From Nitrospirota bacterium (lineage in GTDB: Bacteria > Nitrospirota > Leptospirillia > Leptospirillales > Leptospirillaceae): a stretch of DNA of 64,000 nucleotides. Numbering within the stretch: the first letter of the stretch is position 1; each line of letters starts with the position of its first letter. Shown one piece after another: positions 35,710-43,428 of the stretch. A model generated the notes under the pieces. It was given only the letters and a program-made list of their open reading frames with translations. It was not told where the DNA came from and did not search any database. The stretch is from the NCBI GenBank assembly GCA_021810805.1, contig JAJZHW010000001.1:241159-305158 (forward strand), given 5' to 3'. The position numbers and the translations under genes are program-made.

Positions 35710-36180
35710 ATGATTCCCTTCATGCCGACCGTCACTCCCTTCCGCGTCCGTTATTCGGAAACCGATGCCCAGAAACGGGCCCACCACTCCCACTATCCGG
35801 TTTGGTTCGAGATGGGGCGGGCCGAGTATTGCCGGGCCATGGGCTTCGACTACCGGGCGATGGAGGAGGGGGGCGTCTTCCTTGTGGTGGCGAAGCTCGA
35901 GTGCCGCTATACCGGGAGCCTCCGCTACGACGATCTTGCCGCCATCGAGACCCGGTTGGTCCGGGTGGGCCGCCGCATCCTGGAGTTTTCCTACCGGGTG
36001 ACGGAGACCTCGTCGGGGGCGGTGGCCGCGTTGGGCTCAACGATCCTGGTCCCCGTGGACGAGGAGGGCCGCGTCGTGTCGATTCCCGAGGCCGTCCTCT
36101 CGCTCCTCACTCCCTGTGCCGAGGAGGAGCCGACGCCGGTTCCCTCCTTGTCAGAGACCTCACTTCCCTCAGGCGGATAG
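35710..36180 (+). CDS. 4HBT-family (YbgC-like) acyl-CoA thioesterase
   Basis: Hotdog-fold thioesterases hydrolyse acyl-CoA thioesters. The 156-residue product has the family start VRYSETDAQKRAHHSHYPVWFEMGR, with the catalytic-type Asp in SETDA, and EYCRAMGFDYRAMEEGG, VVAKLECRYTGSLRYDD and EFSYRVTE strands of the hotdog. ATG 35710 follows AGGGTGA. YbgC is often the first gene of tol-pal operons, but here the tol cluster lies 15 kb away. The stop codon lies inside the 5' acceptor stem of tRNA-Val, an unusual 10-base overlap. Confidence 0.85.
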   Translation: MIPFMPTVTPFRVRYSETDAQKRAHHSHYPVWFEMGRAEYCRAMGFDYRAMEEGGVFLVVAKLECRYTGSLRYDDLAAIETRLVRVGRRILEFSYRVTETSSGAVAALGSTILVPVDEEGRVVSIPEAVLSLLTPCAEEEPTPVPSLSETSLPSGG

Positions 36181-36246
36181 CTCAGTCGGTAGAGCGCAGC
36201 TCTTACACAGCTGTTGTCGCGGGTTCGATCCCCGCTCCGCCTACCA
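36171..36246 (+). tRNA. tRNA-Val (anticodon TAC)
   Basis: It folds as a complete cloverleaf: acceptor AGGCGGA/TCCGCCT, D stem GCTC/GAGC, anticodon stem CAGCT/AGCTG with loop CTTACAC (anticodon TAC), and T stem GCGGG/CCCGC with TTCGATC. The CCA is encoded. The 3' end is the attachment site of the integrated element to the right; the element repeat begins inside the T arm at 36233. Confidence 0.95.
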
Positions 36247-36262
36247 TCCTATGATTTTTCAC
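36233..36262 (+). repeat. Left attachment repeat
   Basis: Thirty bases starting CGCTCCGCCTACCATCC are identical to 43399-43428. The copy begins within the tRNA-Val T arm and runs past the CCA, as expected of a tyrosine-recombinase attachment site in a tRNA 3' end. Confidence 0.92.
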
Positions 36263-36420: not shown

Positions 36421-36470
36421 GAATGCCCCCGATGGGCTAAAAGACATTGCTCCTCAGAAGTGGAGGCAAC

Positions 36471-37676
36471 ATGCTGACCGATACATCGATCCGGAACGCA
36501 AAGCCCAAGGAAAAGCCCTACAAACTTGCCGACAGCGGGGGGCTCTATCTCTTGGTTACTCCCAATGGCTCCCGATTGTGGCGGCTCAAATATCGGGTTG
36601 GGGGTATCGAGAAACTTCTTTCTTTTGGTTCATACCCCCAGGTGAGCCTCAAGGAAGCGAGAGACAAGGCATTTGAGGCCAAGCAAGGGCTCTTTTCGGG
36701 GATCGACCCATCCCAGGCGAAAAAAGCACAGAAGGCCAGCGCGTCCGGGGCCGATAGCTTTGAGGCGGTAGCGCGTGAATGGTTCGGGAAGTTTTCGACC
36801 GGATGGGCTCCTGGTCATGCGGAGCGCGTCATTCGGCTCCTGGAGCGGGATGTCTTCCCGTGGATCGGTCTTCGTCCCGTCCGGGAGATCACGGCTCCGG
36901 AATTGTTGGCCGTTCTCCGCCGAATCGAAGCGCGGGGGGCAGTCGATACGGCGCACCGCGCAAGACAGACGGCGGGGGCTGTCTTTCGGTATGCCGTCGC
37001 CACAGGAAGGGCCGAGCGCGATCCGTCCGGCGATCTTCGAGGAGCGATCCCCCCGGCGCGAGGCGGCCACATGGCGGCCGTCACCGACTCTCAGAAGCTC
37101 GGGGGGCTTCTCCGGGCCATTGATGCCTACGAGGGCGGCCTGATTGTCCGGTGCGCCCTCCGATTGGCTCCGCTTGTCTTCGTCCGTCCAGGGGAGCTCA
37201 GGGCGATGGAGTGGGCAGAAGTCAGCGTCGAGCGGGGGGAGTGGGTCATCCCCGGCCAGAAGATGAAGATGAAGCGCGAACATATTGTCCCGCTCTCCAA
37301 GCAGGCGCTCGAAATTCTCGAAGAGATCCGGCCCTTCACCGGGGCGGGGCGTTACGTCTTCCCAACCCCTACGTCCTCGAACCGGCCTCTTAGCGACATG
37401 GCACTTCTCACCGCCCTTCGTCGAATGGGAATCACGAAAGAAGAAGCGACGGTTCATGGATTCCGGGCCACGGCCTCATCGCTTCTGAACGCTCAGGGCT
37501 GGCCGTCGGATGTAATCGAGCGACAACTGGCCCATGTAGAGAAAAACCAGGTGCGGGCGGCCTACAATCGGCACGATTATCTCCCGGAACGCCGAAAGAT
37601 GATGCAGTCATGGAGTGATTATTTGGGGGAATTGAAAAGCGGGGCGGAAATCCTACCGTTTCGGAAGGTTGAATAA
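36471..37676 (+). CDS. P4-type tyrosine integrase
   Basis: This site-specific recombinase integrates the element at tRNA-Val. The 401-residue protein has the N-terminal DUF4102-type arm-binding domain (ADSGGLYLLVTPNGSRLWRLKYRVGG), a core-binding domain (about 95-190) and a catalytic domain with the first Arg in VRPGELRAMEW, HGFRATASS (His-x-x-Arg), a His in LAHVEKN, and the nucleophile in AAYNRHDY. All catalytic residues are present. ATG 36471 follows GGAGG. It is transcribed away from the tRNA, next to the left repeat, the usual position. Confidence 0.95.
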   Translation: MLTDTSIRNAKPKEKPYKLADSGGLYLLVTPNGSRLWRLKYRVGGIEKLLSFGSYPQVSLKEARDKAFEAKQGLFSGIDPSQAKKAQKASASGADSFEAVAREWFGKFSTGWAPGHAERVIRLLERDVFPWIGLRPVREITAPELLAVLRRIEARGAVDTAHRARQTAGAVFRYAVATGRAERDPSGDLRGAIPPARGGHMAAVTDSQKLGGLLRAIDAYEGGLIVRCALRLAPLVFVRPGELRAMEWAEVSVERGEWVIPGQKMKMKREHIVPLSKQALEILEEIRPFTGAGRYVFPTPTSSNRPLSDMALLTALRRMGITKEEATVHGFRATASSLLNAQGWPSDVIERQLAHVEKNQVRAAYNRHDYLPERRKMMQSWSDYLGELKSGAEILPFRKVE

Positions 37677-37891: not shown

Positions 37892-37930
37892 GTGCAGACA
37901 CCAACGCATTTTTCCTTTCCTGGAGGCCGT

Positions 37931-38128
37931 ATGACAACGCACCAGATCCTTCGCCTACCGCAAGTCCTCGAAACTACTCGACTCTCTCGCTCAACAATCT
38001 ACAGTCTCATCCAAAAAGGCCAATTCCCTCGACCCGTCAAGCTCGGGGAGCGGGCGTCGGGTTGGCTGTTGTCCGAAATCTGCAGTTGGATTGAGTCGAG
38101 ACGAACCCTTTCTACCGTCAAGCAGTAG
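37931..38128 (+). CDS. AlpA-family HTH regulator / excisionase-like protein
   Basis: These 65 residues have the MerR-like AlpA fold: QILRLPQVLETTRLSRSTIYSLIQKGQFPRPVKLGERASGW, with a helix-turn-helix and the wing. AlpA proteins activate integrase genes or act as excisionases in satellites and P4-type elements. ATG 37931 has TGGAGG upstream; the track's longer start lies upstream of this ribosome site. It starts the operon that continues into the primase gene only 9 bases later. The repeat-rich leader suggests tight control. Confidence 0.88.
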   Translation: MTTHQILRLPQVLETTRLSRSTIYSLIQKGQFPRPVKLGERASGWLLSEICSWIESRRTLSTVKQ

Positions 38129-38137
38129 GAGGGGGGG

Positions 38138-40432
38138 ATGTCGACAAAAAAGGGGCGCCCCCTGACGAGGAGAGGCGCCCAAAGCGAACCGATCAAGGAA
38201 GATCATAGCACCGATCCAAGTGATTTCCTAGACCCTCAAGTTTCACCCGACGGAAAACGGCCCCCAAGAGAACCTCTGACGCCGGAGGCCCTGGGCCGAA
38301 TCGCCAAGACGCTCCCCAAGGGGCTGACGCCTTCCCACAAGGAAACTCTTCTTAAGTCGGGCCTCTCTGAAAAGGTCATCGCGGAGTCGGGTTACTTCTC
38401 CGTTTCCGCCGATGATATCAAGAAATTCAACCTCTCCTCGTCCCACGGCCCCGCCCTCGGGATGCCCTACCGGAACCGGGGCGGCCAGGTGGTGCAGGTT
38501 GACCTCCGGTTCGACGCTCCCATCCCCGACCCCGAACGCCCCGGAAAAAAGATCCGTTATTTAAGCCCCCCAGGGCTCCCCAAGGTTTGCGATTGGCCCC
38601 AACGGGAGCCATCGGAGGGAGACGCGATCTTCCTTGTCGAAGGCAAGAAGAAGTCCGACGCGGCCCGATCCCTGGGGCTCTTCGCCATTGCCCTCCCTGG
38701 TATTTATGGCCTCGGGAAGCGGGCCAAGGAAGCCCGGCGCGACTTCGAGGCATTCCCTTGGGAGGATCGGGAGATCGTCGTTGTCTTCGATACCGAGACG
38801 AAACCGAAGACGAAGGCCGCAGTCGAGAAGTCCCGGACGTTCACTTGCGAATACCTGGCCTCCCTCGGGGCCGTTCCGAAGGTTGCCACTCTCCCGGAGC
38901 CAGAAGGGCCGGATGGAAAGATGGGTCTTGATGATTTCTTCGTTCAGGGAGGAACGAAGGAAGACCTTTTCTCCCTGATTGAAGACCCGGCCCCGGACTG
39001 GAAGACGCGCCTCGTTCTCACCGATACCGGAGGCGTTCGGGTCAACGTCTTCAACCTTTCCCTCGTCCTCGCCAATGATCCCGACTTCGACAAATTCAAG
39101 AGAACCCGCTTCAACGACCTGACGAAGCGCCTGGAGCTTCCAGACGGAACCCCCATCGACACACCAACCTTGACCGAGCTCGCCGGAGATATTGAGGGGG
39201 CCTACAAAACTTCCCTTGTCCAAATTGACACCATTCAACGGGTTCTGGAACTTATCGGCGTGCAACGCCGATTCCACCCGATCCGGGACTGGCTCGAAGC
39301 CCTCCCGCCTTGGGACCGAACCCCCCGGATTGCGGGGTTTTTCCCGACGTACTACGGAGCCAAGGATTCCGTCTTCGTCCGGGCCGTGGGAAAGAATTTC
39401 ATGATCGCCACCGTTGCCCGAATCTTCTCTCCCGGCTGTAAACATGACCATGTTGTGGTCCTCGAAGGTCCCCAGGGGATCGGCAAGAGCACCTCAATTC
39501 AAACCCTCTTCGGGACCGAGTGGGCCACGACCGCAAGGGCCGACATTTCCTCGAAGGACTTCATCAGTGGGATTCTTGGCTTTTGGGCCATCGAGCTCTC
39601 GGAGCTTTCCTCTCTCCGTCGCTCCCAGGTCGAGTCGATCAAGGCCGCCATCAGCGCCACAGAAGACGACGTTCGCCTTCCTTATCGCCGGGACACGAAG
39701 CGATATCCTCGCCAATGCGTTTTTATTGCGTCCACCAATGAGGATTCCTACCTCCAGGACCGGACGGGAAACCGTCGCTTCTGGCCCATCCGGTGTTCGA
39801 GCGTCGATCTCGACGGCCTCGCTCGGGACCGGGAGCAACTCTTTGCCGAAGCCCTCTTCAGGTTCCGGGGCGGAGAGACTTGGTGGGTGGTTCCCGTCGA
39901 AGAGGCTCGACAAGAGCAGGAATCCCGCGTCCAGGTGGACGCCTGGGAAGAGCTCATCAGACCTTGGCTCCTGAACAAGTGGGAGGTGACCCCGAACGAA
40001 ATTTTTGAATATCTAGAGATCGATCGCTCCCGACGAGGGCATAGCGAATCAATCCGCTTGGGGATGGTCATGAGGGGGCTTGGGTGGGTGAAAAAGCGCG
40101 TCAGAAAGTCTCACGGGCTGGAATGGATTTTTGTTCCGGTCTCCAACACCGGAACAACACCGGAACACACCGGAACATCCAATGTTGACGGGTTTGTTCC
40201 AAGTGTTCCGGTCGAAAACACTCAACATTTTAAGGAGGAAAAAAACATTATCAATACGTGCACACATGATTTTATGTATATGGGGAAAGAGAAGGGCATT
40301 CAGACCGGAACACCGGAACAACCTAGTACTGACGGGCTGTTCCGATGTGTTCCGGACCTGTTCCGGTCTCCAACACCGGAACACCCCCCGAAGCCCACAA
40401 TCACCCTCACCCCGGAGGACTTCGAGGAATGA
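38138..40432 (+). CDS. DUF3854 / VapE primase-helicase
   Basis: A replication protein that combines a Toprim-like primase domain with an SF3-like VapE ATPase. The 764-residue protein has a DUF3854 domain (about 60-280, with FLVEGKKKSDA and VVVFDTET as Toprim acidic residues). The VapE domain (about 350-600) has Walker A LEGPQGIGKST, Walker B FWAIELSELSSL and the IASTNEDSYLQDRTGNRRFWP sensor motif. From about residue 665 the tail is low-complexity (SNTGTTPEHTGT-like) because the DNA there carries an origin-like repeat array. ATG 38138 has AGGAGG upstream. The TGA overlaps the next gene (ATGA). Confidence 0.92.
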   Translation: MSTKKGRPLTRRGAQSEPIKEDHSTDPSDFLDPQVSPDGKRPPREPLTPEALGRIAKTLPKGLTPSHKETLLKSGLSEKVIAESGYFSVSADDIKKFNLSSSHGPALGMPYRNRGGQVVQVDLRFDAPIPDPERPGKKIRYLSPPGLPKVCDWPQREPSEGDAIFLVEGKKKSDAARSLGLFAIALPGIYGLGKRAKEARRDFEAFPWEDREIVVVFDTETKPKTKAAVEKSRTFTCEYLASLGAVPKVATLPEPEGPDGKMGLDDFFVQGGTKEDLFSLIEDPAPDWKTRLVLTDTGGVRVNVFNLSLVLANDPDFDKFKRTRFNDLTKRLELPDGTPIDTPTLTELAGDIEGAYKTSLVQIDTIQRVLELIGVQRRFHPIRDWLEALPPWDRTPRIAGFFPTYYGAKDSVFVRAVGKNFMIATVARIFSPGCKHDHVVVLEGPQGIGKSTSIQTLFGTEWATTARADISSKDFISGILGFWAIELSELSSLRRSQVESIKAAISATEDDVRLPYRRDTKRYPRQCVFIASTNEDSYLQDRTGNRRFWPIRCSSVDLDGLARDREQLFAEALFRFRGGETWWVVPVEEARQEQESRVQVDAWEELIRPWLLNKWEVTPNEIFEYLEIDRSRRGHSESIRLGMVMRGLGWVKKRVRKSHGLEWIFVPVSNTGTTPEHTGTSNVDGFVPSVPVENTQHFKEEKNIINTCTHDFMYMGKEKGIQTGTPEQPSTDGLFRCVPDLFRSPTPEHPPKPTITLTPEDFEE
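40132..40383. repeat. Iteron-like CCGGAACA array with AT-rich core, putative origin
   Basis: Ten exact copies of CCGGAACA or its complement TGTTCCGG, plus two near-copies, lie in 252 bases in two clusters (40132-40211 and 40305-40383). A 25-base segment is repeated exactly at 40132 and 40359. The clusters flank an AT-rich stretch (about 40212-40300). All of it is inside the 3' end of the primase gene. The layout resembles replication origins recognised by a primase-helicase. Confidence 0.7.
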
Positions 40433-40866
40433 AAGCCTTGATTATCGAAGACTTCGCAACGAAGACGGGAAAGATTCTCAGGATTGGGGATGTGGTCGAG
40501 TCGGGAGACGGGGGGATCATTCACCGCCTTATACGGGGGGGGAGAGCCCGGCTCCTTCCCTCCGGGACGCACGGGGATGCCCCTTCCTGCCCCGATGAGG
40601 GGTCGAGTGAGGCTCCCCTACCCCGAGGGGATGAAACGCCCCTTCCGGCCCGGTTTAAGGCCGGGGATCGTGTCCGGTTCGTTTATAAGCGGGCTCTCGA
40701 CGCTCTGGAGGGCGTCGTCTTGGAGGCGAAGTGGCATCCCGCCCCGGTCAGTCGGTGGTGGTTCAGGGTCGAGACTGGAGGATCAAAAATTTGGACGAGC
40801 GAATCTCATGTCCAGGCCGCGCCCGGCGGTTCCGGGTCATCGAACAATGAAGGAGGTCACCAATGA
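40429..40866 (+). CDS. Element protein of unknown function (145 aa)
   Basis: ATG 40429 overlaps the primase stop (ATGA), and the 3' end overlaps the next gene by 4 bases, so it is translated as part of the same operon. The protein has two beta-rich segments, KALIIEDFATKTGKILRIGDVVESG at the N-terminus and FKAGDRVRFVYKRALDALEGVVLEAKWHP in the second half. The latter resembles a small SH3-like or phage barrel. A Pro/Gly/Asp linker joins them. No family is recognised. Confidence 0.65.
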   Translation: MKALIIEDFATKTGKILRIGDVVESGDGGIIHRLIRGGRARLLPSGTHGDAPSCPDEGSSEAPLPRGDETPLPARFKAGDRVRFVYKRALDALEGVVLEAKWHPAPVSRWWFRVETGGSKIWTSESHVQAAPGGSGSSNNEGGHQ

Positions 40867-42120: not shown

Positions 42121-42149
42121 ATTGTTTCAGAATAGATCAGGTGGGAGTG

Positions 42150-42184
42150 GCATGAAACATGCAATAATAATGCAAAATTCATGC
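42150..42184. promoter_or_regulatory. Inverted repeat upstream of the small-terminase-like gene
   Basis: GCATGAA (42150-42156) and TTCATGC (42178-42184) are exact inverted copies around an AT-rich centre (ACATGCAATAATAATGC), just upstream of the gene at 42218. This is the layout of an operator over a promoter. Confidence 0.45.
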
Positions 42185-42217
42185 GGTGGGGAAATACTTC
42201 AAAAAGGAGACGAAAAA

Positions 42218-42559
42218 ATGGCATTAAGTGGGGATCACAACAAAATACAGGTGTCTACAGCCAAGCGGCTCCCCCCGAACGCGGGAAAAGGCCGGAAAAA
42301 AGGCGTTCCGAACAAGACAACCCGGACGTTGAGGGAGGCGCTTCTGGCCTCCTTCGAGACGCTCGGGGGCGAGGCATGGCTGGTTTCCCTTGCTGAATCC
42401 GACCCCAAGGCGTATGCGGGCCTTCTGGGTCGGCTGATTCCTTCAGAGGTCAGCGGCCACGTCCAAACGATAGGCACGAATCCAATTGTGCACCTCCACA
42501 TCTCCGACGACCCGACTATCCCGGAACCGGCCTTGACTGGTCGGTTCGGAGACCTCTGA
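42218..42559 (+). CDS. Small-terminase/DUF5681-like protein
   Basis: The 113-residue product starts at ATG 42218 after AAGGAG; the track's longer start is not supported. It has the KGRKKGVPNKTTRTLREALLASFE pattern and AWLVSLAESDPKAYAGLLGRLIPSEV, a set seen in phage small-terminase-associated and DUF5681 proteins that contain a basic leader and a helical domain. The tail is Pro-rich. In phage satellites a small terminase redirects helper packaging, so if this assignment holds it supports the satellite reading. The family call is by pattern only. Confidence 0.55.
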   Translation: MALSGDHNKIQVSTAKRLPPNAGKGRKKGVPNKTTRTLREALLASFETLGGEAWLVSLAESDPKAYAGLLGRLIPSEVSGHVQTIGTNPIVHLHISDDPTIPEPALTGRFGDL

Positions 42560-43398: not shown

Positions 43399-43428
43399 CG
43401 CTCCGCCTACCATCCTATGATTTTTCAC
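43399..43428 (+). repeat. Right attachment repeat
   Basis: Identical for 30 bases to 36233-36262. The next 37 bases still match the left flank at about 24 positions, mostly with transitions, which suggests an older, larger duplication. Confidence 0.92.

Follow-up and report, generated by a model that had tools for sequence, protein, structure and literature searches.

Why should the 3′ end of a primase-helicase gene carry, inside its open reading frame, a dense and two-sided array of short DNA repeats? The question is raised by positions 40132-40383 of a 64-kb stretch of DNA from a Nitrospirota bacterium (the whole of which is referred to here as the window), where the array occupies the end of the VapE-type initiator gene of an integrated 7.2 kb element. 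The answer argued for below is that the array is very probably the replication origin (ori) of that element, built like the origins of phage-inducible chromosomal islands (PICIs) and Staphylococcus aureus pathogenicity islands (SaPIs), in which oppositely oriented iteron sets flank an AT-rich melting region. Judged from sequence, it is best read as an island-type iteron origin that has moved into the coding sequence of its own initiator.

The array, its initiator and known origins

As the initial annotation of this DNA had claimed, a count finds ten exact CCGGAACA/TGTTCCGG 8-mers and two near-copies (TGTTCCAA at 40195, with two mismatches, and TGTTCCGA at 40338, with one) in this interval, making 12 sites that fall into two clusters around an AT-rich core, share an exact 25-base repeat (TGTTCCGGTCTCCAACACCGGAACA, at 40132-40156 and 40359-40383) and lie wholly within the open frame 38138-40432, the last of them 49 bases 5′ of the stop codon. 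Exact copies of the 8-mer number 17 in the window against 3.3 expected, a total reached in none of 100 shuffles, and of all 8-mers in the window CCGGAACA reaches the highest density in any 260-bp stretch, with 10 copies compared with at most 4 for unrelated 8-mers. The left half-origin (40132-40211) holds six iterons in the order -+++-- (40132-, 40149+, 40160+, 40170+, 40195- and 40204-), an order common to three relatives of the same family (L107, L108 and L109), and is mirrored by the right half-origin (40305-40383) with six iterons in the order ++---+ (40305+, 40313+, 40338-, 40348-, 40359- and 40376+). The arrangement is thus an exact dyad of six sites per half and its own mirror image; the array region is 55% identical to its own reverse complement at zero shift, against a background of 24%. 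Sites on the same strand are mostly 10-11 bp apart. The core between the halves (40212-40304, 93 bases), the presumed unwinding region, is 66% AT compared with 41% in the gene body, and its richest 60 bases (40222-40281) reach 73%. Rfam gave no match.

The gene that contains the array (38138-40432, plus strand) encodes an initiator of 764 residues, composed of a DUF3854 domain (a toprim-like primase), a VapE helicase domain (Pfam PF05272, 1.8e-71), a C-terminal winged helix and the array-encoded tail. A profile built from 22 relatives matches PriRep1 (PDB 7pds) at 4e-99, and the best Foldseek matches of the AlphaFold2 model are the six chains of 7pds, an initiator solved with double-stranded DNA (2.7e-29). 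The protein therefore has both the VapE domain and the fold that mark VapE-type initiators of the PriRep1 family and, by these Pfam and fold matches, is not a homologue of lambda O. Residues 602-667 (39941-40138, plus strand) are modelled at high confidence (predicted local distance difference test score, pLDDT, of about 90) as helix-helix-helix-strand-strand, and on this model the winged helix is presumed to be the iteron-binding domain. Foldseek matches of the C-terminal domain by itself are weak and generic to winged helices (best E 0.028), and binding is consequently argued from the full-length match instead. The array starts at residue 665, at the end of the winged helix. The tail that it encodes (residues 671-764; 40148-40429, plus strand) is predicted to be disordered, with pLDDT below 50 over the 90 residues 671-760, and ends in the acidic tip TPEDFEE.

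In published PICI origins, two iteron sets flank an AT-rich stretch directly 3′ of pri-rep, and plasmid maintenance requires the ori (PMC6092414); the iterons of SaPIs are recognised by the C-terminal domain of Rep (PMC7581432). The window array has the same opposed sets of short iterons around an AT-rich region, beside an initiator homologous to PriRep1, itself annotated as similar to the vapE product of D. nodosus. The published origins, however, lie immediately 3′ of the gene, whereas the window array falls within an open frame, at its 3′ end, and is itself translated. Because of this position it is called here a variant rather than a plain member of the PICI/SaPI type, even though its start, measured from the winged helix, is the same.

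Phage lambda provides an earlier example of an origin within an initiator gene, its iterons and origin being embedded in the coding sequence of gene O (PMC5043065). Lambda O, in contrast to the window initiator, is not a helicase but loads DnaB by way of P, and it has four 19-bp iterons, while the window element pairs twelve 8-bp sites, split into two mirror halves, with an initiator that combines primase and helicase. Like the window protein, phage P4 alpha has a Toprim primase, a helicase and a winged helix, through which alpha binds repeats at its origin (PMC4234260); the comparison covers the protein parts, and the alpha sequence differs from those of PICI initiators (PMC6092414).

The layout suggests how the array might work. 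After excision of the element, the VapE-type primase-helicase would bind each 8-bp site through its C-terminal winged helix, with same-strand sites about one helical turn apart, and would assemble on both mirror halves and open the AT-rich core. Two helicases would be left facing opposite ways, primed by the primase domain of the protein itself, giving bidirectional replication; with the frame open through the origin, the origin would also encode a disordered tail with an acidic tip. One possible reading of the most regular dyads, which have six or seven sites per half, is that each site serves one subunit of two opposed hexamers, and the 6+6 dyad offers a testable prediction for the placement of two helicase rings at an origin.

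Selection on the DNA and on the encoded tail

An array that is translated could owe its repeats to the protein: selection would then act on a repetitive C-terminal tail (TPEHTGT-like), with the DNA repeats as a by-product. The tail is indeed translated in an open frame, and its acidic tip recurs in relatives. The sites, however, occur in both orientations and are spread over several codon phases, and random synonymous recoding of the tail yields a mean of 0.8 sites and a maximum of 5, compared with the 10 observed (reached in 0 of 5000 recodings). Recoding likewise fails to give arrays from the tails of seven other proteins (L107, L108, L109, L110, L021, L024 and L029).

The same conclusion is reached from four relatives of the same family (L107, L108, L109 and L110, which are on the same contigs as L006, L007, L016 and L008, respectively), whose proteins are about 40% identical to the window initiator. 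All four have TGGGAACA/TGTTCCCA arrays inside the frame, at positions matching the window array, and three (L107, L108 and L109) have six sites per half; the motif at matching sites has thus switched, with TGGGAACA in place of CCGGAACA, and the peptides differ under the same site layout. The array, moreover, lies outside the gene in most phage relatives. The initial annotation had named a conserved tail with free synonymous variation in the repeats as the outcome that would speak against an origin, and this is contradicted by the motif switch and by the recoding. On the synonymous recoding, protein repeats are rejected as the cause of the DNA repeats, and a tail-driven array is accordingly very improbable. 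Since recoding never recreates the array, the DNA sites themselves must be kept; on these sequence comparisons, selection is preserving the pattern in the DNA rather than the sequence of the protein. The locus is in this respect a clean case of overlapping selection, in which the DNA sites are retained while the encoded segment remains open and disordered and can vary freely.

The host is a Leptospirillum-like member of the Nitrospirota, the named contigs with relatives belonging to Nitrospirae and Leptospirillum assemblies. The closest relative (L005, 85% identical) meets its contig edge before the tail and was therefore left out of the tail comparison. The vapE homologue of L109, on a Leptospirillum sp. 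contig, has one in-frame TAG upstream of its array, which is intact with 12 sites.

In the window the next gene (40429-40866, plus strand) begins with an ATG that overlaps the initiator stop (ATGA), the stop/start overlap lies at the same point in all five aligned sequences, and the C-termini of the five are acidic (DDWQEVD/E, ENWTEVFE, KDWKEIE and PEDFEE). The overlap suggests that translation of the next gene is coupled to that of the initiator, through the array; the frame may have stayed open because this would maintain that coupling for the downstream gene, or on account of a role for the acidic tip.

Arrays beside other VapE genes

The wider occurrence of such arrays was assessed at 74 VapE loci, the set remaining after clustering at 80% identity, with an array defined as five or more exact occurrences of a single 8-mer in the 350 bp around the vapE stop, and with 404 windows from the same loci as controls. 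The viral_contigs collection was surveyed with an alignment as query; a scan of it with a single-protein query had found no relatives. Arrays are present near the vapE stop at 34 of the 74 loci compared with 10 of the 404 control windows (Fisher p 1e-22, a value that assumes independent loci and is a guide only). The initial annotation had named a lack of 8-mer enrichment in homologous elements as an outcome that would speak against an origin. The enrichment is borne out twice, at the same in-frame place in the four relatives of the family and, across this broader set, close to where vapE ends.

The figures bear equally on the proposal that the repeats arose by chance, or by recent expansion without function. 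Two stretches identical over 25 bases are what a recent duplication could give, but site order and position are common to relatives of about 40% identity despite a different motif, and the excess over control windows is large, such that this proposal is scarcely credible.

With respect to placement, 26 of the 34 arrays are at or just after the stop, 7 are entirely in frame and 1 is further downstream, those of the downstream class beginning a median of 17 bases 3′ of the stop. Same-strand spacing across the arrays peaks at 8-13 bp. Mirror symmetry exceeds that of shuffled arrays (p <0.05) in 13 of 37 arrays tested, and the dyad is therefore not universal, although exact dyads occur elsewhere, at L059 (6+6) and L102 (7+7). 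Four phage VapE proteins (L017, L019, L100 and L102) have short C-terminal tips with a final F (EAAF, KEPF, NEYF and RAPF), which resemble the C-terminal tip of single-strand binding protein and could be a docking motif for a host protein.

In cyanobacterial plasmids (L021, L024, L169, L170, L171 and L172) the arrays are again found inside a vapE-type gene, directly after the winged helix, with motifs that differ from that of the window. Here, unlike the terminal tail of the window protein, the array-encoded stretch is a linker that joins the winged helix to a further C-terminal segment (DEFKSxVW...), which is conserved between the two Nostoc plasmids and Calothrix. The in-frame arrays are strong in plasmids of Nostoc, Microcystis and Cyanobacterium and weaker in Calothrix. 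Among the plasmids with weaker arrays, L172 has three exact copies; the Microcystis NIES-298 protein also carries DUF3854. VapE, DUF3854 and iterons are unmentioned in a published study of cyanobacterial plasmid replication proteins. Taken with the Leptospirillum-family elements and at least one phage contig (L029), these plasmids raise the possibility, to which we would give slightly less than an even chance, that VapE-type replicons have repeatedly folded the origin into the initiator coding sequence as a linker or tail after the DNA-binding domain, making one DNA stretch a binding platform, a melting site and a disordered protein segment.

The PICI origin layout was thought by its describers to be unique among known replicons (PMC6092414). 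Its presence also next to the VapE helicases that tailed-phage contigs and plasmids encode implies that a simple rule, a two-armed 8-mer array at the winged-helix end, predicts the origins of many uncharacterised replicons.

Several observations nevertheless weigh against an origin. By the present test, 40 of the 74 VapE loci lack an obvious exact 8-mer array, although some of these may carry degenerate ones; the gap in L107 and L108 is not clearly AT-richer than the arms (0.52 versus 0.53 and 0.54 versus 0.46, respectively); and the link between iteron and winged-helix sequences is weak (Mantel test, partial correlation 0.14, p 0.04). Binding, melting and replication at the array are, in addition, inferred by homology and from the layout. 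Copy control, partition and the control of transcription are further functions that iteron arrays can have, and control roles are frequent among plasmid iterons, so the repeats might be sites for transcriptional autoregulation or for partition or incompatibility instead of the origin itself. A promoter-like sequence in the AT-rich core (TTGATA-16-TAAAAT, 40254-40227, minus strand, antisense to the gene; 10 of 12 matches, with 0.1 such matches expected in shuffles of the 701-bp region) would fit such a role. The array, however, occupies the 3′ end of the initiator gene instead of its promoter region; its position follows the winged-helix end of the initiator in phages, plasmids and islands alike; the tested PICI origins share its layout; and the element has no recognised partition gene. 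A purely regulatory array is accordingly unlikely, and the origin reading put forward by the initial annotation is well supported by comparison of the sequences.

The host element and other arrays of the same 8-mer

The element lies between two copies of a 29-bp repeat, the cores of its attachment (att) sites: attL at 36234-36262, which overlaps the 3′ end of tRNA-Val (36171-36246), and attR, identical in sequence, at 43400-43428, both on the plus strand. Between them, and upstream of the initiator gene, are a tyrosine integrase gene (36447-37676, plus strand, by Pfam) and a gene for an AlpA-family regulator (37892-38128, plus strand; Pfam PF05930, E 5e-20). The element thereby combines a tRNA or chromosomal att site with co-directional int, alpA and pri-rep, the features by which phage satellites such as PICIs are recognised, and Gram-negative PICIs have the same gene order on one strand (PMC6092414). 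By its sequence it looks like a satellite in its integrase, alpA, primase-helicase and tRNA att site; no terS was found in it by Pfam, NCBIfam or PHROGs. A 145-residue product (42122-42559) was considered as a terS candidate because its KGRKKGVPNKTT motif resembles small-terminase N-termini by eye, and was rejected, as no family or phage match backs it; it matches only PHROG families of unknown function.

The window's 8-mer is also found beside primases of other kinds. A scan for TGTTCCGG...CCGGAACA...CCGGAACA returned 50 viral contigs (L118-L167) with arrays that for the most part span about 320 bp and have 9-14 copies, and the large genes checked beside them encode other primases, namely Toprim proteins of about 900 residues and Prim-Pol or Toprim proteins with AAA_25, with a weak VapE match in 1 of 10 neighbour proteins tested. 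These arrays are often about 100 bases or less from the gene stop, and that of L161 is inside coding sequence. One 111-kb viral contig has 24 CCGGAACA copies of mostly alternating orientation in a low-GC stretch (L150, 11457-11965), an arrangement that looks unlike the origin arrays.
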